Below are positions 3,397 through 27,125 of a stretch of 64,000 bases of DNA, one piece after another. Below the pieces are notes generated by a model. The model did not search any database, was not told where the DNA came from, and saw only the letters and a program-made list of their open reading frames with translations. Origin of the DNA: Sipunculus nudus (lineage: Eukaryota > Annelida > Sipuncula > Golfingiida > Sipunculidae); contig CM049309.1 in NCBI GenBank assembly GCA_026874595.1, positions 71,902,926-71,966,925 on the forward strand. The letters are read 5' to 3'. Made by a program: the position numbers and the translations under genes. Within the stretch, counting starts at the first letter, position 1; each line of letters begins with the position of its first letter.

Positions 3397-6300
3397 AATG
3401 TTATGGCATGCATTATATTTCATTTTCAAATGAATTTTCTGGGCGAACTCCACTGTCCACAGGAAATAACATTTGAAGACAAACCAGTCTTAATACAGAC
3501 AAAAATACAATATATGGTGCTACTCTATTAGGCGTTTCTTCCAAGTTCCTGCGTTAAGTTACTAATATGTAAACCAAATGACCAAGGGTTAAACATGATA
3601 CCCGTCGCATCAGGCTAGGGTATACAACAGGTGTGAAGTACAGCTATAATTGATTACCTGCGAGTCAGAACAAAACTAACAAAACATTATACCTTATTCT
3701 TGCACGTTTAAATATTCTTCTGTGATATAACAAAGGCCCATACCGAATTATAGAAGTGTGTGTGTGTGTGGGGGGGGCCTCAACACCCTGTCCAGGTAAA
3801 TTAGTATGTAGGGAGGGCTTGTAGACTTTATAAAAATCTCCCGTTTGTATCCCTATAGGGAAGAAAAATACTTCGCTGCTTATCGGTTTTCAAAGTACAC
3901 TTTTCTAACACATAAATAACACCACGTTTTACTCTTTCGCCATATTTTGTTGCCATTTAACTGATACCACTGATCACATTTTTATTATTACATGGAATCG
4001 TATTCAAAGAAAACCCACAGCTGCACGCATTGCAATTTGAAATTCTAAATACTTGGGGGTGTATTAGAAAAACGTACCCGTGTAAAAATATGAAATTAAA
4101 AAATTAATTTTTTTCAATTAACCCGTTTTGGTAGATGTAAAAAGAAATTTAAACAGGTTTCTGGAAAAGTGAAGAAGATAAAACAGCAGCATTTGCAATA
4201 GTAAAAAAACCACAATCTCTTGTTGACAGTATGAATTGTCTCTGGTATACGGGAAAAGGGAAACAATATTTCCTTCCATTAATTAAGATTCTATGTGTAT
4301 TTCTTTTTTCTATACCCAGTCGCATTTGCTGGCTACATTTGAGAATATATATACCATCAAGCTATTAAACGCCTTCAGTCATGAATGTGACCAGAATAAA
4401 ATCCTATCACTTTCAATAATTAATTCTTTCAGTCAATACATTATTTACTTATACTGTTCCAGGAATTTTTTCTAATGAAGTTTCCTGTGCATTTTCCAAA
4501 ACGTAAATATTTTTCAGTAAATTTATAAAATAAATGTTAAGGGTCATTAAGAGAGAAATTACATTATGTAAATTAGACAGGTTTACATACACGTCCTTGT
4601 AGATGATAGCTTTTGCAGAATAGACTGTTAAAACTTTCTCTCATAATGACGATAAGAACCGGTGAACCGATAATCAGTGTTAAGTATGTTTTATACTCTT
4701 ATAATCTCGAGCTAGGAATGCATATTAATATTATTAATATTCTTCACACGTCTTTTCTCCTGTTGTTTTCCACCAACAAACACCAACCAACGCAAGGGAA
4801 TCACACCTTCAAACTGAAATTAGGTGCATTAATCGGACATATATTTCTGTGCTCCAACAAAGATTTAACTAGAATGGCCCAAAGAGATCATGACTACCGG
4901 TTATGAAATTTCACCACAATCAATCCAGTAAAAATATTACCAGAGTAAAAAAATATTGTTAACAAAATATTATTGTACTTGTACATTATACAAAATTACC
5001 AAAAGGAGTTGATAGAGGAAAATTACCTCATTATTCACAAAGTCTACGCCCCATATTGAGTTATTACGGGGAAAAAATCAGCACAAGTACCCAACCTAAA
5101 TAGGTTCGTTAAAGCGGGTCCTTAAATATTACAGTTTGCTGAGAGGATCTCTAAATCAAGGTCTGCGTGTGCGTGGCCATGGTTGTATGAAGACAAAGGC
5201 AACTATCAGTTTGAATCACAGTAAAGCGAACCTTTTTATGACTGTTTGGGCTTGGATGTCTTTGGGAAGCCTGACTGAGGATGATGCAAGAGAGTAAGAA
5301 AAAAATAAGATTCTTATTTACAATTTGTCTTTCTTACTTTCTTTTTTGTTAGATATGTTATAGAAAACCAGGAAGCTAGGAAGAAGGAAAATCAATGAAA
5401 AAAATGAAAGACAAATGGAAAAAAAATTAATTAAAGCAAAGAAACATATTAAGAAAGCGATTAAAACGATTCAAGATATAGGGACAATAAAGAATAAAGG
5501 AAGAAAATACAAATGGTTAAAGAGACGAAAGCAATGAGAAAATTAAGAAAAGAAGAGAGTAAGGAACAAGGGATTAAAGAAGATATGTATACAAGAAAGA
5601 AATAAATAAAAAGGGTTTCTTGGACCAGAGCTTTTGCATTGAACGATAACCAAATTTCCGTTATCAGCGTAAAATAATGAAGGATACTTGATTTGGAGAA
5701 TTAAGGTATACTTTTGAGATGATCCCCCCCGGGCTGCCTGTGGCAGGAGGTTGGAGAAGCTGGCCTGTCGGTCTGTCTAAATGAGTTAAGAGGTACCTGA
5801 GCTGAAATGTTAAACAAGTGTATCATATAAAATTAGATAATAATTAATAACAAAAAGTATATCACTGGGGACTGATATTCATAATTCATTTTAGAATATT
5901 TTTTTTTGTTTGCATACAATAATAACACAATTAATATAAGAGAAATATTGATTATTAAAATTAATCCTCGCATAAACATGAACAAGAAGAATGGTTTATC
6001 TCAGCTCTCTGTATCATGAATATTTCGCTGTAAAGAATATTAGTTATTAGAGTAATATACAGGGCAGGTTAAGTTCCGTAAAATTTTAAAGACTAGGCAA
6101 ATGTTCGTAAAATGTGCATAAGTCTTGTTAGGCAAATTAATTATGTTATCTTTCCAGAGACACATTAAACACATACATGCAAAATTAACTCCAAAAATAC
6201 ACACGACAAATACAGCTTACATTTGATATCATATCTTTGCTTCGTGAAAGCTTTCGTGTGCAGAATGTATAAAGTAGAACCAGTTTTCATTTGCCCCACG

Positions 6301-7539
6301 CCCTTGTCTATTAAGTGTTGAAGTACCAGCAGGTGTACTTTAACTGGCACGCTAGTATGAACCAATTTATAAATAATAGAGATATAGATATTACAACAAA
6401 TACCTGTCCATCACGGGATTCAGAGCTTATAGCTAAAAATAATATGCATTAAAATGCTAAGGAAAATACTTAATCCATGTAACATCAAGGTCCAACCCTG
6501 TAACTAATCCTATACCAATTAGTCATAAAATAGATTGAAAATTACATTTATCATGCTATGATATTATTATCTTGCCTTACCTTGCTTAGGCCACACGTAT
6601 GACATCAATCTTTGTGGGGTTTCCCTTCCGTTTCAATTTGATATCCAGAGAGAGATGTATATATATAGAGAGAGAAGGGGAGGAACAGACTGACAGGCAT
6701 TTAATGAAAATATGATATCCATATGAGACCGTATCTTCAATGGTGGTTGTAATCGGACGACAGTCTTACACACTGGTGTTTTTATATCCGTGCAACAGTC
6801 ATGGGAATAGCACTTTCTCCAAAGCATAGTCTCTATCTTAAATAACAATTAATGTGCGACAGCAGAAACAATAAATCAATCAAATTCGGGTATTATGGGA
6901 CGCTTCAGTCCATAAACAGTGGATTGCATGGAACGATATAGAAGATTTCCCACGGGCAAAAAAGAAAGGAAGATTGGAAGATGAAGGTACCCATCAATAG
7001 GCGCGTTGATCAAATATCACAAAGCCGTCAACCATACTGGTCCAGACTGCTGCATATATCAGATCCAGACACATGGATATTGAGTGACCTTCCGTCAAGC
7101 ACCGATGTTAAAAAAAAATGTGTTGAGGAGGTGCTACCGTGGAGGTTGGGCATTGGGATTATACACTAATTAGATTATCATACCGGACAAATTTTTTTTT
7201 TACAGATGAAAGGCAATTTGCGTCAATCCGCCAGTCTCATCGATCGGATAATGGTAACTGGTTAGGTAATATGGCGTGTAGCTGTCGACGCTCATTTATT
7301 GGTCACATTTGGTATTTAGTTGCAAATTAACATTTCTGGTGGTATAATATTAACATTGGGCTAGATATTTTGTCTTTTAGGAGCTACGTTGTCATGGACT
7401 CTTCATCATTTCGCTTTGCCGACATCTCCCCTGCAAAACACCTTTACCTATTCTTTTTTTTTAAATTCAACACAGCCACGTTTTGAATTGTTGTTATGAA
7501 AACAAGTTATAAACTGCAGCTGGGCCTATATTTATATTA
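3397..7539. other. Intergenic, no supported gene
   Basis: AT-rich DNA between the lectin gene and the CACTA element. It contains a short GT/G run near 3757-3778 and a purine-rich low-complexity tract near 5340-5600. Open frames are short, without recognisable motifs or splice support. Confidence 0.5.
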
Positions 7540-7560
7540 CACTGTAAAAATGGTGTTTAG
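7540..7560 (+). repeat. Left terminal inverted repeat of CACTA element
   Basis: Begins CACTGTAAAAATGG. It pairs with 27105-27125 on the other strand with three mismatches and is directly followed by the 137-bp repeats. Confidence 0.8.
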
Positions 7561-8337
7561 GGCCTAAACACATTTCTAAACGCCTGATTTGTCTCCACTT
7601 ATACCACACGTTTAGCTGCTACACATGTTTAGATTGCATGTGCTTAGCCCTGAAAGTGTTTACGGATGAGACACGTTTAGCTGTTTATCATGTTCAGGGC
7701 CTAAACACATTCCTAAACGCCTGATTTGTCTCCACTTTTACCACACGTTTAGCTGTTTCACATGTTTAAATTGCATGTGCTTAGCCCTGAAAGTGTTTAC
7801 GGATGAGACACGTTTAGCTGTTTATCATGTTCAAGGCCTAAACACATTCCTAAACGCCTGATTTGTCCCCACTTTTACCACACGTTTAGCTGTTTCACAT
7901 GTTTAAATTGCATGTGCTTAGCCCTGAAAGTGTTTACGGATGAGACACGTTTAGCTGTTTATCATGTTCAGGGCCTAAACACATTCCTAAACGCCTGATT
8001 TGTCTCCACTTTTACCACACGTTTAGCTGTTTCACATGTTTAAATTGCATGTGCTTAGCCCTGAAAGTGTTTACGGATGAGACACGTTTAGCTGTTTATC
8101 ATGTTCAAGGCCTAAACACATTCCTAAACGCCTGATTTGTCTCCACTTTTACCACACGTTTAGCTGTTTCACATGTTTAAATTGCATGTGCTTAGCCCTG
8201 AAAGTGTTTACGGTTGAGACACGTTTAGCTGTTTATCATGTTCAGGGCCTAAACACATTCCTAAACGCCTGATTTGTCCCCACTTTTACCACACGTTTAG
8301 CTGCTAGGCATGTTTAAAACGCACGTGTTTAGCCCTT
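7560..8337 (+). repeat. 137-bp sub-terminal tandem repeat, about 5.7 copies
   Basis: Copies begin with (G/A)GGCCTAAACACATT at 7560, 7697, 7834, 7971, 8108 and 8245, an exact 137-base period, and are over 90% alike. Each copy has several CTAAAC/GTTTAG words in both orientations, such as CACACGTTTAGCTG and GACACGTTTAGCTG. In CACTA elements such sub-terminal motifs are binding sites for the accessory DNA-binding protein. Confidence 0.9.
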
Positions 8338-9891
8338 AATTCATATACACCAGGGATGTATATTATCAAGACTGCCACAGATAAATTACAAAAATCTATA
8401 TTGCCTGCTATTCTACTTTACAGTTTGTTAACAACAGCTAATTTTTAAAATGTTAAAATAATTGAGCAAAAATCATTTTTAGCATACCAAAGAAAAAAAA
8501 TATAAATTGTGCCCAAACTCTTCCACACATCACACCTATCCCCTTCTAGTGCCCACCATTAGCCACTAGCCTTGCTCATTTGTTAAATACACTGGGTATC
8601 TGAATGTTTACATAACAAATGATTTTACTTTCAAAATAAACATTTATTCAAACAAAAGGTATTTATTAACAAAGGATATGTGAGGTTCCAAGCAGCTTAC
8701 ACAAAATACGGCCTGTAGGCCCAATGCAAACCTGTGTAATGAAATAGTAAGTACACTGCTATTCACTTGTTTCCCCCTACAATATATATTTTTCAAGTTA
8801 ATGTATTTATTTTAACTAGATAAATATCATGAGCACTAAATCTCCTGCCAAATAGGAATGCAAGAAATGTGAACTTTGACTGGTATAATACTAGAGAAAT
8901 TTATCAAAGTTAATAAGAATGCAATGGAAACCCAATAAAGTGAGAATACCCATACACATGCCTTAAACACTAGGTATAGAGGTTGATCAAATGACACTTA
9001 TTGACATACAAGATCACATATGAATTACATAAGTCAAAGTTAAAAGACAATCATTCAATAGTTACTAAAACCTCATCAGCTCAGGAGACCCATACAATAC
9101 ACATGACATTATTATTAGAAGTAGGTATGAGTAAAATGTTTTGAGATAACACCTCACATATGAATTATATTAAAACTGTTAAAAAATAAATCAATTAAAA
9201 AATATGAAAATCATTCAAGTGTAACCAAAACATAACCAGGTAAGAAGATCCATAGACCCTCTTACAATTTTATTTAAAAGTGGACATGAGTTGCACTTTT
9301 TGAGTAATCCCATACATGTCATGTTTGATTTAAATCTTTTTTTAAATCATAAAAAAATAAAAAATCTTTCAAGAATGACCAAAACGTAATTATCATTTCC
9401 ATACAGAGAGCTTCAAAAATATTACTACTAACATATACTAACCTAATACATCTCTTGGCATGTTGCAATAAATGTTGATAAATGTATGCCATGGCACATG
9501 TTACAGCTTCTCAAAGTCAACATAAAAGATAAACTAAGTAATAAGTCCAATAACTAAAACTAAGTCCAATAATTCAACCAAAACACTGCAAGCAGAACCA
9601 TTAAAAAAAATTTTAAAAGAATTATTCTAGAGACAACTCCTGTGTCACGCTAACCAATACAGACCTTATTCTTAACTGGAAAAACATTTTGCAGAACGAC
9701 TCTAGCATGTTTACAGAATATAATCAAGTTTTAGTTTCCTGTGACTGGCCAAAGGTACTGAACCAAATGCATATGAACAAAATTACAGAATCAGTTATAT
9801 GACTTTTTTTAACTGCAGTCATATCCTTGAATACAGATTTACAACATTTACCATGTTTATGCACTGGTGTCCATATGTCATCTAGTGATAC
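8338..9891. other. Non-coding spacer inside CACTA element
   Basis: AT-rich, no exon seen between the sub-terminal repeats and the last exon of the SAM-domain gene. It would hold the 3' UTR and poly(A) site of that gene. Confidence 0.5.
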
Positions 9892-12800
9892 TTAAATTTC
9901 ATTAAATTTCTTTTCAAATTTTATGTACACAGATGACTTGAAGAAAGGATTTTTGGTGTCACAGATCATGTATCTCTGAAGAAAACCCAAAAGTTGATAC
10001 TCCTTTGGGTATGAAAGGTCCCAGGCATAATATGCCCCTATCAAGCAGTAGAGCACCTGAAATAGACACGAGGTGTCTAGTGTAATTTCCATTGTGTCTG
10101 CCACAAGCCAAGCCTGATCAATCCTTGTTCCATCTTTGGTGATGATAACCCTTGGAGGAGACTTTGCAGCACATCCTGTGTCCAAGTCCACTGCCTGCAA
10201 ATTGGTTAAACTTGCATCAGAGCATCGGAAGTAATCTTGAATAAAGGGCTAAACTGTAATATGTGATATACTTGTTTAACAGGGGGTTGATTCTTTTAAG
10301 ATTCTTATGTTATATGACACAAGTTACTTGACTAATTTTTCAAAACACCATGAATTTGGTCTTTGCGTAAGTAAACTTTTATCCATGTTAGTCAAGCCAG
10401 TTTTGTAATCCTAGCATTCATAGCTAAAACTTTCTCATCTGGCCCAGGCATTCCATTTGGTCAAAATGAATTTCATAGTCAGTGTACTAGTAACTGTCCA
10501 TTTACACAGTTTCAACTTGTTGATTTAAAAGTTTTCACCTTTTACATCTTAAGTTGGCATACCACTGGTAAATGTGAAAGATCATTCCTATGGCAATTTT
10601 GTTTGATGGATCTGTCCGTTGCACAATTTGTTTTGCTTAAAAGTAGTTTTATACACTTGTATACAAGGATCAACAGTCACCATTATTGATTTTGATACAA
10701 AATCTGACCATACATCATTTGTTTAAATATGTCCCTTAGTTGAGTTTTGTTGTGCTCTCAAGGATAAATGTGGCAGTGCATGCCAAGGCACCAGCCATGG
10801 TATCCCTTGACTTTTCTCAGGGGACGAAAAACATTACATATTATTTCCACTTGATCTGCTCATAACTGAATATAAAAAAAGGTCAGCTTTTGCAGTTATT
10901 CCATTCTTACAACAATCTTCCATACTGCTGAAGATATGATGACATATTTTACCCATCCATGGCCATCATATGCTTTTATCATTTCGGGTAGAATCAGTAA
11001 GCTTAGTATGAGCAGAATCATGAAGAATAAAGTTTTACAGCAAAATAGCCTATTTTCAAATGTTTTATTAAGAACATGGGCAATCAGCTGAAAATATTTT
11101 TGTGGTTTTAGAATTAATCAAGGATATTAAGTTTTCAGGTTTTCCTGGTGATCATAATACTCGACTTCCACACACCAAATATATCTGAAATGCCAGCATA
11201 TGAGGCAACCAGAGACAGTAAATTATATAACTTCTGAACATAAATATCCCACTTAAAGTTCACATCAAGTGTTCATCAAATATTTAAACTTTTAAAAACA
11301 TATTTTGTCTCCATGACAATACTGATAAACAATAAATAATCAAGGTTGTTCTGTAGATAATGACACCTAACTCCAAGAGGCGAACTTGTTCAAGCAATAA
11401 GTAGCAGTGAGCCAGTACTTACATCAACCACTTCGATTGCTGGCTTCATCTTGTTCTTGAAGCTCAATCTTTTTTGGAGGGCAAGAATTACTTCAAGCTC
11501 TTCCTGTTCCTCATTATACATGTCATCCTGAAAAAAAGACAATTGCGATTAGCCCAACATTTCACAATAATGAAAAATAAAACCATCTTTTTTATGTGTT
11601 AGATCCAACCAAAACTGAAAATACAAGATAAATGATGTAATTTTACAAAAATATAACCCTAAAATAAGGTATAGGAAAGGATACCAAAAACACCATTTAA
11701 TAAACTCTGGGCCCTAAACTTTATTACCACAGATGTATAAGCTTTTTCCATTTATTGTACACAGGTTCTATAAATACACTGATGATGATAGAGTCAAGAA
11801 TTTCTATAAAAACTGTTCTTTTTTAGAATATTAAATTCCCTTTCTAGTGTTTTCTCCCTTTAAACACTGGAATTTCAAAAATGGGTTTTACCTCTTTCTC
11901 CAATTCAGTCATTGAAATGGTCACATCCAGGATGTTGGTTAGTTTGTCCATCATTTCGTTGTATGATGCTTTTGTATCTTCCATTTGAAAGAGGCTTTCA
12001 AACTCCAGTACAATCTGAGAAAGGATTGAAGCTTTTTATAGAATGTTTGCACCTTCTTTTAAAGGCATTTAAAGGGAGTGACTGTTATTACATTAGCAAA
12101 AGTAGTCATAGATGCTTTAATTCAACATATCACACTAAGTTTAACACAAACATACTACTACATCAGGGTAAAGGAAAGCAGGCAATCTCATAGACAAGTT
12201 TCAGTATTGACATGACTTAAATATAAAATAAAAGACCCATAGTTTAGTGTGCTCAGTTGAATTGAATATTTGTATAAAATCCAAGCATATGGTAAAGGAT
12301 CAACAGTTATTATATATTTTCTATATCCAGGTCACTGAAATATTTAAGTACAACTATTTCATATACAAGAATTACCTTATCTCACTTCTCATTTGACCAC
12401 ATAAAGACAACACATTTGGTGTTGAATGGTGTTACTTTGGAGCCCCATAGCTAAAAGAATATGAGTAACAGAGACCTAATTTCAGGTTTCCAAGAAGACA
12501 TATCATGGGTCTCCCAGTATGTCAGAAGATAATAGGTCCAGTCATTACCTTTGTATCCTGTTAACAGATGACCACTTTTCAAGGTCTCGAAAAAATACAG
12601 GTAAAAAACTGTAAATAGTCAAAAAAATAAAGGTGGTGCCACCAGTCTGCAGAACCTGATGAAACATCCCATGACCAATTTCCATGCTAAAAATCATAAT
12701 GATCCATGCAATACATGTTGAGATATTTAAGGTTTGTATTTAATTTTCCATTATCCTGGGGGTTACTTTGGAACACCATAGGTAAAAGAATATGAGTAAC

Positions 12801-15800
12801 AGAGACCTAATTTCAGGTTTCCAAGAAGACATATCATGGGCCTCCCAGTAGGATTAGTCGTAAACTGTGTGTCCTGTTAACAGATGACTGCATTTTTCAA
12901 AGTCTCAAAAATACAGAAAAAAAATGGTAAAAAATTGAAAAAAATAGATGGTGCCACCAGTCTGCAGAAACTGATGATACATCCCATGACCAGTATCCTT
13001 GCTAAAAATCATGATGATCCATGCATTAGTTGTTGAGATATTTGAGGTTTTGTGTTAAATTTTCCATTATTCTGGGGGGTACTTCAGAGCCCACTAGCTT
13101 GGAGGATATAGATCAAAGTGACCGAATTTCAGGTTTGCAAGGGGAATTTTCATGGTCCTCTCAGAATGTCAAATTACAGGATTCTAGTTCCAGCATTTGT
13201 GGTTTGTGCCCTGTTAATGGACAGAGGCCCATTGCCAGACAGACAACTGACAAAGAGGGTTTGCTATAGCTCAGATGACTTACAGTCAGCTAAGCTAAAA
13301 ATTGCTTAGGCCCACAAAAGGTTATTTTTCACCTACCTTTTTTCAGAAACAAGTGCAGGGAGCCAATTTTTTACCTTTTTATTACTTCTTTTTTTTAAAT
13401 TCAATAACCAACCTAATTTTTTAGCTTTAATTTTTAATTTTAAGATGTTAACTGATTAAATACTTACATTTACATACTGTTAAATCAACAATACGTACAG
13501 GTAAATAATAAGTCACAGTACAAAATTAGCAAAATTTTTTGTGCTGATTTTAAATAACTTAAAAAATTTACAAAATTAATCTTATTATTTATACAGAATT
13601 GAATTTTGAATAAATAAAATTATATCCCTGAACAAAAATCTATAGCTATAGCTATTCATAGGTTAGGTGACTAAATATCTTCTGGATTTTTTACACATTG
13701 CATTATGTTCAGGCCCATAACCTCTAGAAATTACATAATACTGACCTGGTTCCTGGTATTTTCAAAGGAAAAATATAGAGGAGTATGTATATACAATTTG
13801 ATAAAAAAACGGATCAGTGGTTTTGACAACAGGCAGTTTTTAGTGTAACAATGAGTTTTTAATGGAAAAATTCAGGTTTCTAATTTATATCTCAAAGGAA
13901 TAACGTCGTAACGAAAACGCAGTTTTCAGTATGGAAGAAGATTCTGGGGACATTTATGCCAAATTTTTTATCTGTAGGTCCAATGGTTTCAAAACTTGCC
14001 AGTGTAACAGACGCAGACCAAGACTAAGGCTGAGATGACTTATAGTCAGCTGAGCTAAGAAAATGTCTTACTGGGTTGAGATCAAAATTGGTAAAATTCT
14101 ACTGCAAATCAAAATATAAATTTCTGTTACAGGGGGTCAAAACTGACATGTGCCATGACTGAGAAGACAACCCTTATAATTTGACTTTACTTACAAAATC
14201 TGGCATTTTCAGAAGTGGAAACTGGTTCACAATTTTTTGTACTGCCCCATCTTCCAGGTTTCTTATAACAAGCCTCCTCTCACTGAAAGAGCTGCGCATA
14301 AGCTTCTTTAGCTGGGGCTTGTCTTTTCTTGGAAGAGCTTTCTTAATGCCCTCTTGACACTCCTCAAAAGTCATAGATGTTCCTGATAAAGATACACCGC
14401 ATTACAAATTGGTGCTATTCAACCCATCTATTCTGTTACAGAAGTGATTGAGATCATATAATAGCTCCTCATTGGTACAGTATATGATTTGGTGATGGAT
14501 AAACAAGGTTGGATCATTCCAGTGCAGTGAAATAAAATTGATGATTAAAAATAGTGAATATCAAACACATTTGCTGCTCTTTTCTATCTAATATAGTGCT
14601 AAGCATTGCTTAAAGATTCATCAAATCCATCTGATGAAATAAAATGCAAGTTTTGTTCCAGAAATTATATTTAGCTAAGCCTGACCTGTTGCCTGGATGT
14701 TCAACCTTGTGACCCCACAATCTAAAAGCTTATATCTTGAGCTGAGTAATAGTTAAACTACACATGAGGTCTGGCCAAATTTATAGCTCCCATATAAATG
14801 AAGTTTTGACCTAAACAATTAGTTCTAAAAGAAATTATGAAAAATAAATTAAGAGATTGAAAAAGAAATAATTAAATGAAATACCTTATCAAATTAATTA
14901 TTTTAATATTTTCAAATTACATGTTACATACCTGGTGCAACTGTTGCCAATTCAGTACATCGTCTACTCTTCTTACTGGTACGAGATTGGCTGGGGTTTT
15001 CCCTTCCCTTGTTCAGACGCCGTTTCCGTCGCCATCTGATGTTTCTTAGTTTTTGGGAGAGTTTTGCAGTGATGAATGACTGCGATATTAAAAAACTTCT
15101 ATTTTAAACATCAGTTAGTTTTTATAAAAGCAAAATGATTCCATTTCTCTGTCTCTGCATGATCATGTGTATACATGTTTTGAACAGCAAAGCAGTTAAT
15201 TTGCAGCACTGTTGCATGTAATTGATGGAAAATAGCATGGGATTTTGCACCAGCATGAATTCTTGTGGAGTGCATGTAACACCACAAAAAGGAAATATTA
15301 TAGTGTGTTTGGTTGTAAAAATAATAAATAAAAATATAAATATATTGTAAAAAATAGAAATAATAGTTTTGTAGCTATGCTTTATAATACTGAAACATAC
15401 CTTAAATGGTGTCAAGTTGTCTTTAAGTCATTAAGTTTGTGAGCATTATTTTGTGTGCAACTGACTTGTCAGTAACTGTCATCAAATACAAAAAAGTAAA
15501 ACATGGCTCACCCATGGATTTCGACCACTTGTGAAGGTAATCCCTGGATATTCTGACACTAAGGCACGCCCATAATTCTCATACTCCAACTTTGTTGAGA
15601 TGTCACATGTGGCAATGATATGGTATGCTGTCTCCTCAATAAATGCGTCAAACTCTTCCAGGATTTTGCCTTGGTCAAGGAGAGTTTTAATCCTGGTGCT
15701 GTATTGAGGCAGGTTAGGTTTACCCACAGGATTATTTTCAGTAAGAAGCTGGGTTGTTTCTTTGTTTGGAATTACATCCTCCATCTCAGATGCACCTTCT

Positions 15801-18800
15801 GACAGGACTTGCTCCTCTGTTGTAACACTGCTGCCAGCCACTGATTCTTGGGTGTTGCTGCCACCTTTGGGACTAATGTGCTAAACAAGGACAAATTTAA
15901 AAGATTTATAACAGTAGGTTTCTAATTTTTTCTCAAATTGTAATTTAACTTCATACTTAATATGAATAATATTTATAGTATTAATAATAATAATTATTAT
16001 TAATAATAATATATAAAATTTACAGGGCCTTATTCATAATTCCTCACAGTAATTTTAAAAGATTTTTAAGAGGATGTTAGCAAACTGATCACACTGTTAT
16101 CATATCTTAAGGCATATATATCATTTGTTTCTTTCACACAATTATGATATAGCTTGTTAAAGGCATTTCCTCTAAAAATGTGCTATGAAAAACTAGTGAA
16201 ATCATACATCACATACCTAATTGACTAACTTTTATACACAATATTTTTCAACTAAAACAACCATTAAAAATCAACTTACATCTTTTAGGCTCAGCAGTAC
16301 CATGATTTTCCTCACATTACCTATTTTCCCAGGTAACATTGCCTTCAGATCATTCTCTTTTATATGCCTTAAGGTGAAGCCATCCACAAAATTATCTGTA
16401 AATCAAAATTAATGGCAGTTAAAGCTGTTTATGTATAATTTAATTTAGGTCTATAACTGCAGCTGTGATCTAGCTTTTTCTACTTTCTCCACTCAATCTT
16501 TGTTATGAAACTCCTCAATGTCAACCCTTCGGATGTGCATGTTTGCTCTGGAATTTTCAGGAATGATGGCAAGTGTGTCCTTAAAGGTGTCATTTTCCAT
16601 CTCTTCCCAGATGTCCTAAGAAATCTGACATTAATTAGTGAAGGAGCTGCATATTAGGAAATGCATATTTATGCATATAATTACCCTGCTGGCTTTACCG
16701 ATGGATTGAAAAGGGACACAACATGTCATTTAGAAATATATGTAGGCTGAAAAACCTGTAGCTCTTACACTACTGAGTTTTGATGTAGCTCTTACACTGC
16801 AAGTTTTGATATTATATTTCAACATATTGTCAAACACTGTGGATATAGCATGTTTGCCAAGTGAATAAATTCTACAGCTTTCTTCAAAATAACAAGAAAA
16901 ACTCGGTGCCCTGACCAGAAATAAATCACCTGTCCAAATCATTCACTTGGATAATTATAACAATATATTTTTTTAAAAGTCTGGAAACTCTGACAGTTCA
17001 AGTAAGAAATATCATATTCAATGTTTAACCATATGTACTAACCATAATTTGATGGCACAGCTCTCTATGGAAACCACACTTCATCCAAATTCTGCAACAT
17101 GACATAATGCTGTTCCTTGCATTTGTGGTAAATCTGTGGCCAAACATATTTCAGCTCTTCATATTTTGTGACTTTGATATCATTTGTGCAAACAATCTCA
17201 AAGGCATTCAGCTTGGGATTAAAGTCGACAATGTTCAACATTTTGCATACAAAATATTTTTCTTCACCAAAAATGACTATGGTATCAATCCTGAGCAGCC
17301 CTGGCTCAAGTTCAAATGTATCCACAATAACTGATCCTGACTTATAGATTAAGCCATTGATTTTGACACATGGTGTCAACATGACTTCACAGTTTAGATA
17401 TATATGCAGGTTTTCACAGTTAATTTGACTGAGGAATTTTTCCTTGAATTCAAGTGATTCAACAGACACAATATGCCCTTCTGCCACTTCATCACCCTGA
17501 CTTAGGTACACTTCAGACCTTGAACCTTTAGGACCAAGCATTTGTAAACACATCCATCTCTGATGGTACTCTGAGAGACTTTTTGGAATGTTTTTAAACT
17601 GAACCATCTTTGTAGCTTGAAGAATCCATTTTTTGCTTCGAATCTCATGCACCAGTGCATTCGAAGAGGTCCAAAATGTAGGAGCTGTGTTGGAAAATGG
17701 ACCAAGTAATGCAATTTTGGTTTGTAACTTTCCTCTGGGTACAGCTTTATGAATGTACTGGAATATGCTGCTATGAGGTATTCCAATGATGAAATAGTGC
17801 GTTCTGATGCCACAGGGGATAATGAAAGGAGCGTTATTTGTAGGCAACGCAGGAAGTTTATCCAGTTTTCGTCTTCATCTGGAATTTTGTCTGCTAAAAT
17901 GAAGGGTAATGTTGTCACCAAATTTTTCATTGAAGCAGCTGACTGGGCAAATGTTTTGCCATTAATGAGCCACTTTCTGTCAATGATTTGTGGTTTGTCT
18001 TTAGCTTCATTTTCTGAGTAAGAAAAGTTCAGTATCCGAGCATTTAACTCATCTAGTGAAATATACTGTTTTTGTATAATCACAACACTAAACAAACACC
18101 GAAGTTCATCCCGGAGTACACCCTCAAGCAGAATATGCATGGGGTCATGCAGCAAACACTTTGTTATGGAAAAACCAGGCACGTCATGTAAAATGCTTTT
18201 CCCGTTTATTCCCCATTGTTTTGACCAATGTGTATATACATGTCTTCTTACTGACTTCTTTCAAATGATCTACTCGATCCCTGTGTTCAAATTCATCCCT
18301 CACTGTGCACTCCCTTGCAAACTTAATATCACTCATATTCTCTCGCCTCACTTCACATGACCTGCAAGGTAAATGTGCACCACCTACACCTTCTTTAAAA
18401 CCACCTATCATCTGAGAGGCAAGTGTATCTGCCAGCACAAAGAATAATAGTCCATGCCATTTCTTTTTTCCTGTTCCCGGAACATCAATATCAGCACCAT
18501 CATATAGAATTTGAAGATCTTGTGTGAATGATTCTAGTAACCTGTCAACTCCAAATTCTTTCAAATCCTTTGTTTTGGCTATTGCAAGCAATTGCACTGA
18601 AGACAGCTTACTGCGGTACTCTGCGGGCACATTGAGTAGAAGCCAATAAAATGCAGTTAGCTTATGTTTTTTGCGATGGCTCCCAATAGGATTTACAAGT
18701 TCAAAATCGTCTGTATACAGTGCAAACAGCAGTGCATCACTGTGTTCTGTTAAATATGGGTGGGTTTTGAAATAATATCCGTCATATATATCCTCCATTA

Positions 18801-19693
18801 GGCCTGAAGCATTATGATGATCTTTTCCCAAGCATACCTGGACTTCAGGCATACCCAAAAGAGCTTTCAACTGTTCTAAAAATGGTACACAGTAACCAAA
18901 AACACTTTTCTTTTTCCAAATATACCGGCCCTTTCTTTTGATACGGATCATCCTCTCCCCTAAAGTAATTTCTTCAGGCTGCACATAACCAAAGCCTGTT
19001 TTAAACATCTTTTCTTGTTTGTACTTTGTCTCTAGTCCTTCAAACAGGGGAGCATCAAAGTAATGTGAAAAATCAATTGCTAAACCAGAATTTTCTGCTA
19101 CAATTTTCTGTTTGATAGATTCAAGCTTTTCTTGAAACAACAACTGTGTAGACTGTAATACATCATCCACTGCCTTTTGGCTCATCCTGTGACCAGCCCT
19201 TAGTTTAAGTATATAAGCTGCATCATTTAACTTAGACAAGTCATTTTTATGTACAGGCTGATCCTCTTCTTCATGAAATTGTACATCACAATCACTGTCA
19301 CCCTGATCTGAGGCACAATTTGTAAGTACAGGTTCACTGAAATGCTTCCTTTGACAGTGCATCTTGAACGATGTGTAATTCTTGAAAGAAGCCCCACAAC
19401 CACTATATGAGCAATGAACAATAAACTGAGGTGCATTTCGATGTCTTTTTAGAAGATGATGCAAAAATTTCTTGTGGGATTCAGCAAAATATGGACACAT
19501 ACTGCAACAAATGTCCATTTTCATGGATAATCTGTAAAAAAAAAAAGAAAAAACTAAACAAAACAAGGACTGAAAGAGTATATTTACCTGAAAAGACCTC
19601 TGCAACATCAGATGGTATGCCGCATTTTACTAAAACATCTTTCACATCATCAGGAGTGCTCGTGTCTTCAATATTTGCAAACAGAGTTTCCAT
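9892..19693 (-). CDS. SAM-domain companion protein of CACTA element, 8 exons, intact
   Basis: Exons in transcription order: 19693-19588, 16395-16280, 15880-15512, 15079-14932, 14382-14195, 12014-11892, 11527-11423, 10194-9892. Every border is AG/GT, all phases agree and no stop interrupts, giving about 485 residues. Exons 1 and 2 together form a sterile alpha motif (SAM) domain: DDVKDVLVKCGIPSDVAEVF continues across the splice into DNFVDGFTLRHIKENDLKAM and ends GKIGNVRKIMVLL. Exon 3 has EYENYGRALVSEYPGI and ends at NPW; exon 4 is highly basic (RWRRKRRLNKGR); exon 5 ends near VNQFPLLKMPDF; the last exon holds a globular tail (KSPPRVIITKDG..AYYAWDLSYPKEYQLLGFLQ). The same layout is known in animal proteins labelled SAMD3-like. 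Role inferred: the element's accessory, possibly DNA-binding, protein. The transposase lies in intron 1. Confidence 0.8.
12440..13310 (+). repeat. Degenerate dispersed repeat, about 2.5 tandem units in an intron
   Basis: Units share CAGAGACCTAATTTCAGG, GTTAACAGATGA, CACCAGTCTGCAGAA and CATAGCTAAAAGAATATGAG, with a period near 330 bases, and end in the phrase AGCTCAGATGACTTACAGTC. The same family forms the array at 42.5-43.9 kb and shorter pieces at 13.98-14.06, 24.3-24.5 and 24.8-25.0 kb. Confidence 0.75.
17065..19524 (-). pseudogene. tnp2-type CACTA transposase with N-terminal zinc fingers, two frameshifts
   Basis: The reading begins at ATG 19524-19522 just inside a splice acceptor (exon start 19531) and ends at TAG 17067-17065, about 820 residues if the shifts are bridged. 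The N-terminus has C2H2-like fingers (CCSMCPYF..H..KRH, then CSYSGCGASF..H..KH). The core shows the tnp2 signature: YTDDFELVNPIGSHRKKHK, LADTLASQMIGGF, CRSC, HDPMHILLEGV and HWCMRFEAKNGFF. Likely catalytic acids are in the YTDDFE, LADT and LLEGV blocks (inferred from the CACTA DDE family). The frame changes near 18240-18260 (+1) and near 17620-17630 (-1), so the copy is broken, unless these are assembly errors. It would cut and paste the element in the nucleus. It lies wholly within intron 1 of the SAM-domain gene. Confidence 0.8.
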
Positions 19694-20749
19694 GTTTGTT
19701 TATGATCTGTGAATAAAATAAAAAGTATACCAGATTTAAAGATTCAAAGACAAGGCTTGAAACACTTCTGAAATATTTGGTTCATAAGTTATAGGTTTTC
19801 CATAACAGCACAAACTTGTACAGGTGACCCTGGGTAACAATGCCATATATGCTGTCCTTAGGGTTCATACACATAAAGCCATACACAAGTTATCTGACCT
19901 ACCCTACATCAGGCAGTGACCCTGAAACTTTTCTTGATAGTTTATAAATTTCATTTGATAAATTTCAACTAGAAAACTGACGTATCAGGAAGGGCCCTGC
20001 AAATACATTCACTTTGAGTAAGAGTTTTTTGGTATATGGGAAGAATATTTTGAATATAGGAAGAACAATAGATAGCATATTCAGATGAAGCACAAAATGA
20101 TACATGTAAAGCTGTGAAAATAGGAATAAATGACCAATCATGTTGAAAGGCAGCAACAGAAATATATTAAGAAATTGTATATATATATTATTTTTTTATG
20201 AATATCCCTGAGTATCAGCTTTACCTGTGCAAGTGGAGCCAGAGTTGCTTGTAGCTGAGCCTATAGATGCACTGTGTTGTGTAAATTGACTACATATTTA
20301 TATCAATGTATATTTGCTGATGGTCACTGTAATAGGCCCAGATTCTATAATGCAGGACGTGGAGACAGATATGTCCAAACATGGTTTAAATGAGATGAAT
20401 TTTGTCAACACCAAAGTGTGAGTAAAGTTGACATGTGACCCTGACCCTGACATAAGACCATAAACCCCAAAACTGAAAAAAACCTTATTCCTTGTGTCAT
20501 AGGTATTTTATATTTAAAGTTTGAATCCAATTAATCAGTTGAAACAGGAGCTACTGTCTGAAATTGAATTTGTGGACAGACAGACCTTATCAAGTGATAA
20601 AACTATGTTTTACTATGTAACTTGGAAAAAAAATAGAACCTAAGACCTCATTTCAGGTTTCCTTGCAGATAACATGTTGACCAGATCTGTCCTGATGTGA
20701 AGCTGGAGAAAACAATTATCATGTTTCCCTTTGCTAAAGGTGGATCAAC
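19694..20749. other. Upstream region of CACTA genes
   Basis: No exon seen. The promoter of the two minus-strand element genes should lie here or across the nested insertion, but I cannot point to a start site. Confidence 0.3.
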
Positions 20750-22343
20750 CAGGGTTTCCGCGACCCTAAAATTTAGGCCGGTAAACGGACTCTTTCCCCC
20801 GCGAGGGTCATTAAAAATTCCCCCAGCCAAAGAGGCTGAGAGAGCTTAATAATAACTCAAGCACGAGTGTCGTGCTGTCTTCATCATCTTCAAACTATGT
20901 ATCAGATTTGCGCGCCCCTGTCGCCTGTTCGGTGCCACTCAGTCACTGTCCTGACAATGTCTGAAAAACTTTGAAAAGAATAGATCAGTAAAAAGATTCC
21001 TTATACATGTACAACATCTGCGCAAATAGTTTTTATGCTGTCTCGCCATTTAATTTTCTGGAGAAGGTAATCAGTTGTGTAACCATAGGTTGTGGACGTA
21101 CGATGTCGGCCCTGAACATGCGCTACCGGCCAAAGGTGTGATATTATAATTAATCGTTCGACAACCGTACATTCAGTCTCTGTAGTCAGTAAAAATGATA
21201 AACCTATCGATAATGGAAATTAAATTTGTGTTTTATTTGGTTGTGATGATATATTTTTCAAAATTTGAAGAAGGTGAATCATTTTCATCATGCAGTCGCT
21301 GTGGACATCGCTGCTTTGACATATTAACATACCGCGGGCCTTGCAGCGAGGTCACAATGCAAAGGGCTTTTGTCTTGACCTTACCGAACAAATTTCAAAA
21401 GGCCGGAGCGTAGTGAATGCGCTGTTCTATGTGCGAATATTCATGAGGGAATTCCCTATTGAAATAAAAACTTGTGGCAAATGCAGCCAATAGCGTCCGA
21501 GGAAGTTCTGAATAATTCAACTGAATGTCACACGTGCAGAAACAGGTCGTGCACGTCTCGGACACGATCGCAATCAGGGATTTCGCAGAATCAAATGTTG
21601 GGCCTATAACAAGTAGGCCTAACACACTAAATTTCAAGGATATTGCACGAATTTTAAGTAAAAGCATGCGACAGCAATATATATTTTTTGTCATTTAACT
21701 TTGAGAAAAGCAGCCGGCCGTTGAATGCGTTGCAGCAGCCGACAAAACGCCGGCTGTAGTGCGGGCCCATCGTGAACACCCGGTCAGCGGAGATCACGCG
21801 GTAAGCACCAGGCGCGGGTAATCTGGGAGCGCGGGAAACCGTTAGTCCCTGGAGGGGTATGTTGAATTGGTCAATAGCTTGGGGATACACAGGAAGCGTG
21901 CACGATATAATAAAAACAAACAATGTGGACATCGCTTGGGCAGAACAGGCCCTATATTTATTATATTTATCTTCGTCAATTCGGTTTGCGCAAGTTTCCA
22001 AAACAGATGTTTAGGCGAATCCTTTCCAATGAATAGTTAAGTAAAAGGCCAGTTTCTGGGCCCACATATGTCAGGGAGACACGACTTGTACGTGCATGCT
22101 GCATCACATGAAGGCCTAACGAATATTTTACTGTTTTACTGGTATATTTTTACGCCTTCCATGGGCGTGATACTAAGCTGAAAAAGAACATCAGAAACGT
22201 TGTTTTCAACCTTGATTTTGTAAAATTTCCACACCGTGGGAGGGGGGAACCCACACCCTCCCCTCGCTTCGCCCCCACGCTAGGTTCACTCCCTGTCACA
22301 AAGTAAAAACGGACACACTTTTTCAACCCTGGCGGAAACCCTG
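20750..22343. mobile_element. Nested non-autonomous TIR element, 1.6 kb
   Basis: Ends are CAGGGTTTCCGC at 20750 and its exact reverse complement GCGGAAACCCTG ending at 22343, a 12-base perfect inverted repeat. Directly outside each end is TCAAC (20745-20749 and 22344-22348), a 5-base direct repeat that looks like a target duplication. The interior is more GC-rich than the surroundings and shows no transposase. The CAGGG start recalls hAT-like ends, but those make 8-base duplications, so I leave the superfamily open. Confidence 0.55.
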
Positions 22344-23554
22344 TCAACATCAGAAAAGAATGATTTACACTGACCAATGACCTTGACCCCAAAATCAAAA
22401 GGTATCTTCAGTGCTTAAGTTTCCTGTTGTGTATACTCTAAATGTAGCTGTTCAATTTAGAGATAATCATTCCTTCCAAGCAGCAATCTCAAAACCTTTC
22501 CATAATATTTCTAAAGCTAAATATTTACTTAGAGTTGATCACAATATAAGGGGATACCCCCCCCCCCCCACACACACACACAAGGGAAGCACACAGTGGT
22601 ATACCCCCAATATATGGAATATCTGGGGGATCCACATTCCATAAATGCCTAATATACCCTTCCCAACTCTCCTCCACCTTTTTCTGCAAAATCACATTTC
22701 CTCAGTAATTAACACAGTAGCTGATCCCTCAATTTTGTAAAGAACACTAGGAAAATTTGATTTTATTTTCCCATGCACACCCTGCCATGATTACAGCATT
22801 ACATGATAACAATCGGTTTTACATAATTATTTGAATAAGGGTAGTAATAGATGAACAGACCAGTAGTCGGAAGCACAGATCAGGTCTTGGGGTACATTCA
22901 GTATTTATCTGTGATTCCAGCATGGTGTCTTCTGTAGTTGGTGTAAGTAAGTAGCCAATTCCAAATGACATATTTCTAAATGACAAATGTATGTCTCAGT
23001 CAGCCAGTTACACTGACTCCAATTAGTGTTTCAGTTAAAGACTTCATTTAAGTGCCATATGGTTATAGTCATGTGTGCACACTTTGTTTCCTTTTTTTTA
23101 TAGCTCATTTTCACATACAAACTTTTACTTGTTTTTAGTTTCTACCATTTCTACCCATGTAGAAAGTATATCTACCATATTGATAGTAACTACCTTGTTG
23201 TTACCTGGTGTAAAAGGTCAGATTTTACCCCCTGCCTAATTTACACCCAGGTATAATTTAGCTTAGGTCAATTTATTTAAACCACCTCAGGACAGTTTAT
23301 ACCCCTCAGCATATAGTACCATTGTTAATTATATAAAAAAAATGTGTGCAATTACATTTAATTCATTTAATGTTTCAATCATCTTTTGGTTTTTTTTTTG
23401 GTGGCCTTAACCGCCCCCATTTTTTAATGCTAACTTATCTATTTCTTAATCTAAGTATTTAAATCTTCATTTAAAAGAATTTAAAAGTTCCATTTTGGTT
23501 TGGGACTACTTGTCAGAGTGCCAGCACTTGCTTCCTTTCAGTTTATTCTTATAT
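22344..23554. other. Non-coding, inside CACTA element
   Basis: AT-rich sequence with a C-run plus CA microsatellite near 22558-22582. No gene seen. Confidence 0.4.
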
Positions 23555-23800
23555 CCTGGTGTCACCTATGCAAGATGTCTACCGCACCTGCAGGTCCTGG
23601 GTGTAATCATCCCCATTGCAGGGTCATCACACCGAGGAACCTCCCAAAGACGCACTCGTATGTGAGTAAAACCTGGCTGTGAGGCACAGCCTTCCCATTG
23701 AGCCTGCAGAAAGCTTACCCTGGGTTGGGGTCGACCATGAAGAATCTGACCGCCTCGGCCGAGATTTGAACACACGACCTCCCAGCTTTGACATTCATCT
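23555..23800 (-). mobile_element. SINE copy, minus strand, 5'-truncated
   Basis: Read on the minus strand it has a B-box-like GTGTTCAAATCTC, then GTCGACCCCAACCC, ACTCACATACGAGTGCG, TTTGGGAGGTTCCTCGGTG and GACCTGCAGGTGCGG. The order and wording match the + strand SINE at 60.7-61.0 kb, which shows a fuller tRNA-like head. Confidence 0.7.
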
Positions 23801-24213
23801 TTTGATGTTTCTACACACCATTCATGAGAAAAACTTATAATATCAGTACTGAGGTACAGCAAGTGTAGAAATAACCATTTTGGTTATTTATTTAACTTGA
23901 CCAATATGTATACAGATTTATAGTAGCATTACTTACAATTAATTTTTAATTTATAAACTGTCTTGTTCTTGATAGCTAGCATTTATTTAAAAAGTGGGTA
24001 TTATTTTTGTAGGTCTACATTAATTGGGAGTCTCAAATCAATTTTATAATGTGATTTATGAGATTCAGAAGACAATAAATACTTATATGTATAGTAATTC
24101 AATGAGTCTATACACATATATACATTTTGCAGAGCGATATCATCCACATGAGACTCATTAGTTACATTATTTTTTTTAAACTGACAGAAGATGAACCATT
24201 ATGTACAATTACT

Positions 24214-24234
24214 CCCCCCCCCCCCCCCCCCCCG
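24214..24234. repeat. Poly-C run
   Basis: About 20 consecutive C. Length may be affected by sequencing. Confidence 0.8.
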
Positions 24235-25014
24235 GACTTCATCTATAGTGCTCCTCCAATATATTTTACTAAAAATGTTGTATGTTTTAATTTAATTTAA
24301 TTTTTCAAAGGAACAAAGCCACAGTGACCTAGTTTTGGGTTTGGTAGGAGAACTTAGGAACATATAACTGTATGTCAAGTTTTGTATTTGTAATTTTAAA
24401 ATGTGCTTGTCTAACAGATGGACAGATGGATAATGGTAGAGGACCAAAACTGTAGCTCAGATGACTTTTAGTCAGCTGACCTATCAAGAAAAGCTACCCA
24501 AGATCAAAGGGCATGGTAATGTTCACTCATGGCAATCAAAGCCTAGTTTATTGAGATATTGGAGCTTTTGTATAAAATTTTAATTTTTACTCAAAATGGA
24601 ATAATCACCACAATTTTTATCTTTCTTTAAAAGAGGTGGATGGCTAAACTCTGCTAAACTTTGCATGATGGCAGTCTGTCTTAAACATCAACTTGAGCAA
24701 CATTATTATATTTGATGAACAAACAGATATTTGTTCAATAGCCTTGATCACTGGCAAGCATTTGTGTGAGTGCTACAAAATGTTTTTTGCCCATACTAGG
24801 TCACAATGACCTAAATTGGGCATCTAGGTCTGAGATTTCCCGGGAACCCTGGATGTGGAGTAAGAAATTACTAGATCAGACAGTCGATATGTTACCTGTT
24901 AAATGAGTTGGCCACCAAGATGACAGACAAAGAGAATCACTTTAGCTCAGGTAACTTGAAGTCAGCCGAGTTGATAATGATACAATATAATAAAAACATA
25001 ATATATGAATAATA

Positions 25015-25016
<2 letters not shown>

Positions 25017-25055
<39 letters not shown>
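25017..25055. repeat. AT dinucleotide microsatellite
   Basis: About 19 TA units; a second tract lies at about 25385-25422. Confidence 0.9.
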
Positions 25056-25058
<3 letters not shown>

Positions 25059-25059
25059 C

Positions 25060-25210
25060 AGTGAAACCCCGGGCTATGGACACCCCTCTGGGATGGACAC
25101 CCCACCTAACGGGCATTTTTGGGACAATCGAGCATTTTTACTCTTTTAAGAACAACTCTGGGGGAGACACCCCGCTATTCAGGACAACAGACACTTTTTG
25201 TCAGCCTGAT
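25060..25210. mobile_element. Possible pogo/Tigger-like MITE fragment
   Basis: Starts CAGTGAAACCCCGGGCTATG next to a TA-rich flank, like ends of pogo-type elements, with phrases GGACACCCC and GGGGGAGACACCCC repeated inside. The opposite end was not identified, so this is tentative. Confidence 0.3.
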
Positions 25211-25375
25211 GCCTAAAATCATCCCGGCTAACCATATAAAACCGTAGTGTTTTGATGCCGTTCCTGGGTCACAGTGTTCAATACATCATTGTGGAGCTGT
25301 CATAAGTTGATGGAAAAAATTAATGCATTATTCACTACCAACCAATTTTGTGCACACTATATGAATGCCATAAAG

Positions 25376-25417
<42 letters not shown>

Positions 25418-25499
25418 TATATTTTAAAAGAAAATCCACACCGTGCACACCCTCCCCTCCCCCTCGGGAGTAATTAATATTACAGAAGCGGTTCCAAGT

Positions 25500-25640
25500 T
25501 TATTTAGGGGCTTCAGACAAAATTTTCCCGCCTGGACCCCCCTTTTTTAGACCTGAGGCTGAGGACCTTTTTTTTTTAGGATTTTCATTTGTCCTCCTGG
25601 GTTGGACCCCCCTTTTCCTAAATCCTGGATCCGCCCCTGA
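25500..25640 (-). mobile_element. hAT-like element terminus
   Basis: On the minus strand from about 25639 the sequence reads CAGGGGCGGATCCAGGATTT, the wording typical of hAT terminal repeats. A second similar end (CAGTGGCGGATCCAGG) is read from about 26582. Partner ends were not found, so only fragments are claimed. Confidence 0.4.
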
Positions 25641-26214
25641 AATATGTAGGCAGAATTGGCCAAGCAGACCAAATGACCAGTTCAGCAGTTGAAATGATCG
25701 TATCGGGTCAGAACAAGGGTGACTGAATGACTAGTCAAGTACAGTATCAAGGTAGAAAAATGACCTGAATCCATCTGGTGAACAATGCACCCAGTTCTGG
25801 AGTTGAGAACAACTTAATAAAATCCTCGCTTCCCTCTGTCAGTGCGATTAGTCTCAATATTCTGCACAAACAATTTGTAACAGCAAATGACAGGAAGAAC
25901 AATATACTTACCAATACATGAAGAAAGAAATTTAGAATGCACCGAGTAGAAATGGTAGGCCTACTTCCGCTCTGATCAACAACTGATGCCGACTTCTCAC
26001 ACTGAATCCGAAAGGCGCGGGGTCGTCAGCAGCAACAACCAATCAGCACTGCCCACGGTGACGACACCAGCCTGACTGTTATTTATAACCGCCCGTCTGC
26101 CCGCGTGCACTTGTACTTAAAAGGTTCTAAATGCGAAACAATTGTAAAACATAAAAGTAGATACATTATGATAGGCCTACGTAACATGCCACGCTGTTGG
26201 CACTAAGGTTTTAA

Positions 26215-26300
26215 TTTTACCCCCCCCCTCCCTTCCGCCACCGGGCCTATTAAATTAATACCCACGGTGGCGGAAGGGGGGGGGGGGGGGGGGGGGTTAA
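26215..26300. repeat. Short hairpin with poly-C/poly-G arms
   Basis: TTTTACCCCCCC..CTTCCGCCACCG is followed 20 bases later by CGGTGGCGGAAGGG..GGTTAAAA. The arms are near-perfect reverse complements of about 30 bases, ending in G/C homopolymers. Confidence 0.7.
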
Positions 26301-26639
26301 AATTGATAATTAATTTTATTTTTTATTTTTTTTTCGTTTATTTTTTTTTGCCGGACAAAACTCTCATATATTATTTGCTTAACAAATAAAAACCGATTCT
26401 ACTACCAGAAGCAACAGGATTTTGAAAAGAGAGGTGTGGGGGTGTCAAACTCAGGTCCTCTATATAGCTCGTCCGGGGAAAGGGGGGGGGGGGGGGGGGA
26501 GTTAGGAGTCTAGGTGGCAAATTTGGTATTAAACATTAAAAAAATATATATATTTGGGCTCGATCCCCTGGATCCGCCACTGCACACACATACTCATACA
26601 CAATTATTTTTACACACACATAAATCTATAATAGCCTAT

Positions 26640-27125
26640 ACTTGTTATGCTAAACACATTGCTATATGGATGTATGAATACCGATGTGTTTAAACGCTAA
26701 ACACGTTTAACCTTCAAACGAGCCGCACCATGGTGTTTAGCATTGGAGGTGTTAACTTAACCATGTGCCTTTAATTAACATTAGGCTAAACATTTTGTCA
26801 GACATGTAACGCTGCTAAATGTGTTTTACAAAATGTGTTTATACGCTAAACACGTTTAACCTTAGAACGGGTCGCACCATTGTGTTTAGCAATCGAGGTG
26901 TTTAGCATTTGTGTTTAGCATAACCATTTGCTTTATATAACCCTATATAATTGTTAGGCTAAACATTTTGTCAGACAGGTAACGCTGCTAAACGTGTTTT
27001 GCAATATGACACATTTCGTTTCTAGTGGACCTATATATGTTTTGCTTTAAAACACATTCCTAAACGTTTATAGGATTAAAACATGTTCCAGATGTGCTTA
27101 AATGCTAAACACTGTTTTTAGAGTG
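26640..27125 (-). repeat. Right sub-terminal repeats and right TIR of CACTA element
   Basis: Two clear units with a period of about 149 bases begin GTGTTTAAACGCTAAACACG (26686) and GTGTTTATACGCTAAACACG (26835). Further CTAAACA/TGTTTAG words continue to the inverted terminus ending at 27125. The motif vocabulary is the same as in the left 137-bp array although the units differ. Confidence 0.75.

Follow-up and report, generated by a model that had tools for sequence, protein, structure and literature searches.

A 64,000-nucleotide stretch of the Sipunculus nudus genome (contig CM049309.1; C4:71902926-71966925 of the assembly), herein called the window, contains a transposable element in which a transposase is nested between two exons of a second, accessory gene. 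On the minus strand the order is SAM exon 1 (19693-19588), a tnp2-like transposase (19524-17065), and SAM exon 2 (16395-16280), each of the two exons coding for half of a SAM domain. The full element spans 7540-27125 (19,586 bp) and is bounded by imperfect terminal inverted repeats (TIRs). It is likely a 19.6-kb animal DNA transposon related to the CACTA elements, probably defective, with two genes in one transcription unit and a TNPA-like role for the accessory protein. A preliminary description of this DNA had proposed a CACTA-like element in an animal genome with the transposase inside an accessory gene. The proposal holds, and both genes lie within the element ends; the span of 9892-19693 that it gave to the element was not borne out, the true span being about twice as long.

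Element ends and genomic copies

The 5' and 3' TIRs are identical at 18 of their first 21 bases. The 5' end begins with CACTC and the 3' end with CACTG; bases 1-4 fit CACTA and base 5 differs. At 8 places carrying the 3' repeat, window included, the flanks diverge right up to the position corresponding to 7540, which marks the element boundary. The window copy lies between a TA duplication (27126-27127 on the 5' side, 7538-7539 on the 3' side), and a 2-bp flank repeat, either TA or CA, was found in 6 of the 7 copies with both flanks fetched, window included; the copy on C7 is the one without it. The target duplication of En/Spm is 3 bp. The 3-bp duplication of the plant CACTA type was not found in these copies. 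Subterminal repeats at both ends, a further CACTA feature, are present. The motif CTAAACAC, chosen from k-mer counts, is present in 8 copies within the 5' 500 bp and in another 8 within the 3' 820 bp, and is absent from the 18,266-bp interior.

Searches covered the 1.43-Gb assembly, and the copy counts drawn from them are lower bounds. The 3' repeat pattern was found at 18 genome places with ≤2 mismatches versus 7 for the reversed control, and the 5' pattern at 46 places with ≤3 mismatches (17 of them exact) versus 9 for its control. For pairing, 22 5' ends with ≤1 mismatch were compared with 20 3' ends, namely 16 of the 18 pattern places and four three-mismatch rows with the 3' form. A 3' partner lies within 30 kb of 20 of the 22 5' ends, giving copies of 5.5-19.7 kb, window included. 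Among the matches listed, accessory exon 8 lies inside 16 of these 20 copies (window included), four copies of 5.5-5.6 kb have no accessory match, and only the window copy carries a transposase of its own family, the next best match being 54% identical over a 142-aa piece. The other copies, which share the same ends, therefore look like internal deletion derivatives of the full element. The enclosure of both genes within terminal repeats that pair at 20 places indicates that the SAM gene is part of the transposon.

A SAM domain divided by the transposase

The accessory coding sequence consists of 8 exons with GT-AG borders on the minus strand (1458 nt, 485 aa, without internal stop; Table 1). 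Exons 1 and 2 join in phase 1, and the two SAM exons were confirmed where the preliminary description had placed them. The SAM domain is recognised only when the halves are joined: together they match Pfam SAM_2 with 18.8 bits (E=0.0019; cut-off 20.5 bits), and neither half alone has a Pfam match. An acceptor, TTATTCACAG, precedes exon 1 and places the start of this exon at about 19706.

The choice of exon 1 was examined by ranking. All stretches upstream of exon 2 that run from an ATG to a phase-1 GTA/GTG donor over 15-80 codons, in the window those from 27125 to 16396, were scored with a SAM profile from three other families. The proposed exon ranked first of 106 candidates, with 24.1 bits against 18.5 for the next. 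It was also first in all four families ranked, among 37 candidates in the family L065, 35 in L039, and 9 in L040 (L and C numbers are our labels); for L039 and L040 the totals also count candidates left unscored because joining made a stop codon, and these two families, being closely related, favour one another in the ranking. A case that the preliminary description had named against itself, a first exon of the SAM gene located instead at 17065-16395, found no support and was rejected. The candidates starting at 17147, 17105, and 16825, among the 8 best rows, score 17.3, 16.4, and 16.2 bits and are outscored by the 19693-19588 exon.

Among the relatives, the joined halves of L065 match SAM_1 at E=6.4e-9 (36.5 bits, above the cut-off of 23), L039 reaches 21.0 bits, at the SAM_Ste50p cut-off, and L040 has 16.0 bits, below the Pfam cut-off. 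At E≤1 a spliced-SAM profile built without L065 retrieved 19 chains of solved structure, the best at 0.0031; apart from the two ancMT rows, these are proteins with SAM domains. With L065 included, the best solved structure is Shank2 (8e-7).

The transposase of the window copy

The window transposase is split over three frames (18184-19626, 17502-18260, and 17065-17874), whose pieces align end to end with the relatives, including two C2H2-type fingers at the N-terminus. The two frame changes fall within the conserved core, because of which the window copy is probably unable to make transposase. An acceptor-like TTTTTACAG, ending at 19532, stands just before it. An open reading frame at about 16616-16493 was considered as the transposase C-terminus and rejected, because the relatives' transposases end where that of the window ends.

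Recurrence of the nesting in related families

Eleven transposase families, window included, were examined by sequence, and three layouts were distinguished. Layout A, in which the transposase stands between SAM exons 1 and 2, is shared by the window, L065, and C1:74.43M. The L065 transposase is an open frame of 829 aa, 24% identical to that of the window, and its SAM exons 1 and 2 are placed as in the window in three near-identical copies. At C1:74.43M, 8 nt separate the end of SAM exon 1 from the transposase ATG, and exon 2 was seen only by tblastn (E=0.0013). In layout B, found in L039 and L040, both SAM exons lie upstream and the transposase is in intron 2. In layout C the identified accessory start is downstream of the transposase (L041, L042, L043, L044, L066, L067); for L041, L044, and L066 this assignment holds as far as seen, and further upstream exons are possible. 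The preliminary description had made intron 1 the host of the transposase. By anatomy this En/Spm-type layout stands in the window, L065, and C1:74.43M, and it fails in the others, the host being intron 2 in L039 and L040. Two decayed loci were also inspected: L071 (C3:51.92M) has an exon-2 match downstream and no SAM exon 1 was found there, and L070 (C14) has only a SAM-like stretch without ATG.

The association was then counted over the genome. The layout-B SAM query gave 43 matches, comprising 24 of exon 2, 18 of exon 1, and one weak match across the border that is omitted from the counts below. Half of the exon-2 matches (12 of 24, 7 of these being copies of the L039 family) precede a transposase piece by 27-82 nt, none is downstream, and 12 are near none. 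Among the exon-1 matches, 7 of 18 are upstream of a transposase and 11 near none. With the layout-A exon-2 query, for which 16 of 18 matches were entered, the other two being second pieces at places already represented, 6 of 16 lie 1.6-2.1 kb downstream of a transposase, none upstream, and 10 near none. The chance that a random place adjoins a transposase is about 0.0008. The spacing is also short: the transposase ATG lies 8-63 nt past a SAM donor in all five families with SAM exon 1 ahead of the transposase.

A tree of nine transposases has two sides with full support, one with the window, L039/L040, and L042/L043, the other with L041, L065, and L044/L066. SAM nesting is on both sides, but the second brings together two long branches, L041 and L065, and the inner forks were left open. 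The layout may thus have been inherited with later change or may have arisen repeatedly; both are possible.

Further loci were noted. C12:17570787-17578155 is an L039-family copy that keeps both SAM exons and the core, with no transposase among the matches listed; it is a natural accessory-only derivative. The transposase match at C16:45625801-45626346 belongs to a 2249-aa open frame, possibly a fusion protein. Outside the assembly, a 4.5-kb contig of an Aquifex metagenome-assembled genome (QNXQ01000188.1, positions 2158-4465, L074) has a transposase resembling L066 by eye, and no SAM exon was seen upstream of it; it is probably animal contamination in a prokaryotic bin. No relatives in viral contigs were confirmed.

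Exchangeable N-terminal domains on a shared core

The accessory proteins of layout C begin differently. A CIDE-N domain, coded by two exons downstream of the transposase, was found at the accessory start of L043 (4756-5270, reverse complement; 43.6 bits, 3.2e-11) and L067 (4788-5260; 55.9 bits, 4.6e-15), both above the Pfam cut-off of 23.5. In L042 (5516-5990) Pfam finds the second half of CIDE-N only, below cut-off (0.0061); a fitting first exon, 5516-5603, also downstream of the transposase, was the best of 78 candidates. L044 (about 6014-6250) and L066 (4677-4930) have a PB1-like start, assigned by eye, for which no domain-library support and no meaningful match among solved structures was found. 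The L041 accessory begins with a stretch matching no assigned domain.

Behind these starts the proteins are related. The cores of SAM and CIDE-N families are homologous by hhalign (E=1.1e-7, with blocks cut by eye), and the C-termini of the window and L066 proteins match by BLASTP (E=3e-4, a single comparison). The window core itself has no Pfam match. The ratio of nonsynonymous to synonymous differences per site (pN/pS) in exon 8 is 0.39 over all pairs among 17 rows (the window and 16 copies; L026 was dropped for gaps), and as the pairs are not independent this is weak evidence of selection.

SAM, CIDE-N, and PB1 domains are able to polymerise head to tail. A fuller model, which we offer tentatively and regard as possible rather than probable, is that the accessory protein is TNPA-like, with an exchangeable polymerising N-terminus (SAM, CIDE-N, or PB1-like) and a core that binds the repeats and bridges the ends. 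In the SAM families the intronic transposase would let splicing set the ratio of the two proteins, and the layout would be ancestral to both clades or repeated.

Proposed expression and alternative readings

The gene order suggests alternative splicing of the two genes. Transcription from one promoter at the 5' end, on the 27-kb side, would yield a single pre-mRNA. Splicing of SAM exon 1 to exon 2 would remove the transposase as an intron and give the accessory protein. The transposase would come from a transcript that runs on unspliced through the SAM donor, or from one that uses an acceptor just ahead of the transposase ATG. The accessory protein may then act like TNPA: its basic core would be a putative binder of the subterminal GTGTTTAG repeats, and oligomers formed through the N-terminal SAM domain (CIDE-N or PB1-like in relatives) would bring both ends together for the transposase.

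The route to the transposase may differ between families. The window, L065, and L039 each have an acceptor-like AG after the SAM donor and ahead of the transposase ATG. At C1:74.43M no acceptor was found before this ATG; therefore the alternative-acceptor route cannot be general. It is conceivable, though unlikely, that there is one transcript and no acceptor choice at all, the spliced form being the default and the transposase being made from unspliced RNA by reinitiation after the stop of the SAM frame. At C1:74.43M the SAM frame ends in TGA immediately before the transposase ATG, and it stops 1 base before this ATG in L040, 20 in L039, and 42 in L065. However, the unspliced SAM frame of the window overlaps the transposase start by 44 nt, and in A+T-rich DNA a stop shortly past a donor is to be expected by chance. 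Both routes, by alternative acceptors and by reinitiation, are possible.

It is very improbable that two transposons are present, a transposase-only CACTA element inside an accessory-only one, or that the nesting is a one-off chance event without an expression strategy. Most paired copies of the window family do carry accessory exons and no transposase among the matches listed, as two separate elements would predict. Yet these copies have the same ends as the full element and look like internal deletions, the SAM-to-transposase distance is short in several families, both to the transposase piece and from donor to ATG, and no independent ends or duplications were noticed around the transposase. 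Weaker still is a host SAM-domain gene whose first intron received a CACTA element: such host genes are common and, among the matches listed for this family, SAM exons 1 and 2 were seen in the window copy only, but this reading was rejected as scarcely credible because the ends enclose both genes, including the whole SAM gene, while the only 3'-repeat match in the window at ≤3 mismatches leaves the transposase (19.5-17.0 kb) unflanked, the accessory 3' exons travel with the copies, and the same order is repeated in other families.

Several observations weigh against a nested transposon with two spliced genes. The window transposase is frameshifted, and its pieces have no Pfam Transposase_21 match at E≤1, only DUF4218 at 0.051. 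Among seven relatives that align full-length with it, three match Transposase_21 (PF02992) at E≤0.01, the best at 1.3e-5 and 24.9 bits, and all are under the gathering score of 28.6. The joined SAM domain of the window remains below its cut-off, and phmmer against solved structures places leucine-rich repeat (LRR) kinases first (0.0028) and the first SAM protein at 0.38. In the window family, SAM exons 1 and 2 are confined to the window copy among the matches listed, 6 of the 11 examined families show no nesting, and C1:74.43M is without an acceptor. None of the 26 genome matches to a spliced L039-family SAM query spans the junction, and the window junction pattern had no genome match, so no spliced retrocopy was found. 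DNA binding and polymerisation by the accessory protein are predicted activities.

Other features of the window

Spaced repeats of about 320 bp with AGAGACCTAATTTCAGGTTTCC lie in accessory intron 5 (12395-13164), and similar text forms tandem arrays outside the element (42557-43693). A single open frame at 38760-40457 (plus strand) codes for a sodium channel of the amiloride-sensitive ASC/DEG-ENaC type (Pfam E=1.3e-53). Two pieces, 34840-35196 and 35383-35787, are channel-like by eye with no Pfam match at E≤0.1 and are likely a broken sodium-channel paralogue.

Table 1 Features of the element, in window positions.
Feature	Position	Strand	Basis
5' TIR, CACTCTAAAAACAGTGTTTAGC	27104-27125	-	Repeat pattern; 17 exact genome matches including window
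5' subterminal region, 8 copies of CTAAACAC/GTGTTTAG	26626-27125	-	Motif count
Accessory exon 1, first half of SAM domain	19588-19693	-	Spliced frame; profile ranking
tnp2-like transposase, two C2H2-type fingers and core	17065-19524	-	Open reading frames; alignment to relatives
Accessory exon 2, second half of SAM domain	16280-16395	-	Spliced frame; Pfam on joined halves
Accessory exon 3, conserved core block	15512-15880	-	Spliced frame; core comparison
Accessory exon 4, basic, KLSQKLRNIRWRRKRR	14932-15079	-	Spliced frame; core comparison
Accessory exon 5	14195-14382	-	Spliced frame
Accessory exon 6	11892-12014	-	Spliced frame
Accessory exon 7	11423-11527	-	Spliced frame
Accessory exon 8, C-terminal domain	9892-10194	-	Spliced frame; matched in 16 of 20 paired copies
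3' subterminal array, 137-bp unit x 5.7	7554-8336	-	Tandem repeat; 8 copies of CTAAACAC/GTGTTTAG in terminal 820 bp
3' TIR, CACTGTAAAAATGGTGTTTAGG	7540-7561	+	Repeat pattern; flanks diverge here

Comparison with known systems

An animal CACTA-like element with transposase-skipping splicing is not new, because SmTRC1 is in print (2006, PMC1636069). According to the available text of that report, most expressed sequence tags of this schistosome element skip the transposase frame, its target duplications are 2 bp, and related TRC elements occur in Schistosoma, Aedes, and Tribolium. What is new here is the SAM accessory gene, the nested layouts, and the exchangeable N-terminal domains. The literature searched, at the level of titles and abstract openings and without Repbase and subscription journals, yielded no description of a SAM or CIDE-N accessory protein for CACTA elements. 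The available text of PMC13155389 and PMC4158355 added nothing on such genes, and that of the Hydra genome paper lists CIDE-N among domains enriched with transposases (PMC7642931).

These results indicate that animals too have the En/Spm gene layout, carried by families whose transposase frames are open and whose accessory protein has a recognisable domain. The balance between transposase and end-binding protein in CACTA elements thereby becomes testable in an animal, and the domains found suggest that polymerising domains were recruited for assembling transposon ends.

The present element shares with SmTRC1 and the TRC elements a tnp2-like transposase in an animal and a 2-bp target duplication (PMC1636069). 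For SmTRC1 the text available describes alternatively spliced transcripts, second proteins from spliced forms, and a clone with both frames in tandem; here alternative splicing is predicted from the gene order. The TIR core that its authors suggest is CCC, unlike the CACTC/CACTG here. Other protein parts of TRC are described as not detectably conserved, and the same text mentions no SAM, CIDE-N, or 5' coding SAM exon.

In maize En/Spm, as far as PMC2613891 relates it, the tnpD frame lies in intron 1 of tnpA and TNPA binds the subterminal repeats. The present element is similar in its transposase frame within the intron-1 region of the accessory gene, its subterminal repeats, and its deletion derivatives. 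It is different in its first accessory exon, which codes for half a SAM domain, and in its accessory protein, which is not recognisably related, as judged without direct comparison with TNPA and from a window core lacking a Pfam match. The soybean element Tgmt* is described in the same source as a 20.5-kb CACTA element whose complex gene gives transposase and mosaic transcripts, with accessory proteins that diverge between families. The present element resembles it in these respects, mosaic transcripts being a prediction here, whereas Tgmt* is a plant element with another accessory protein and a 3-bp duplication (ATA) (PMC2613891).

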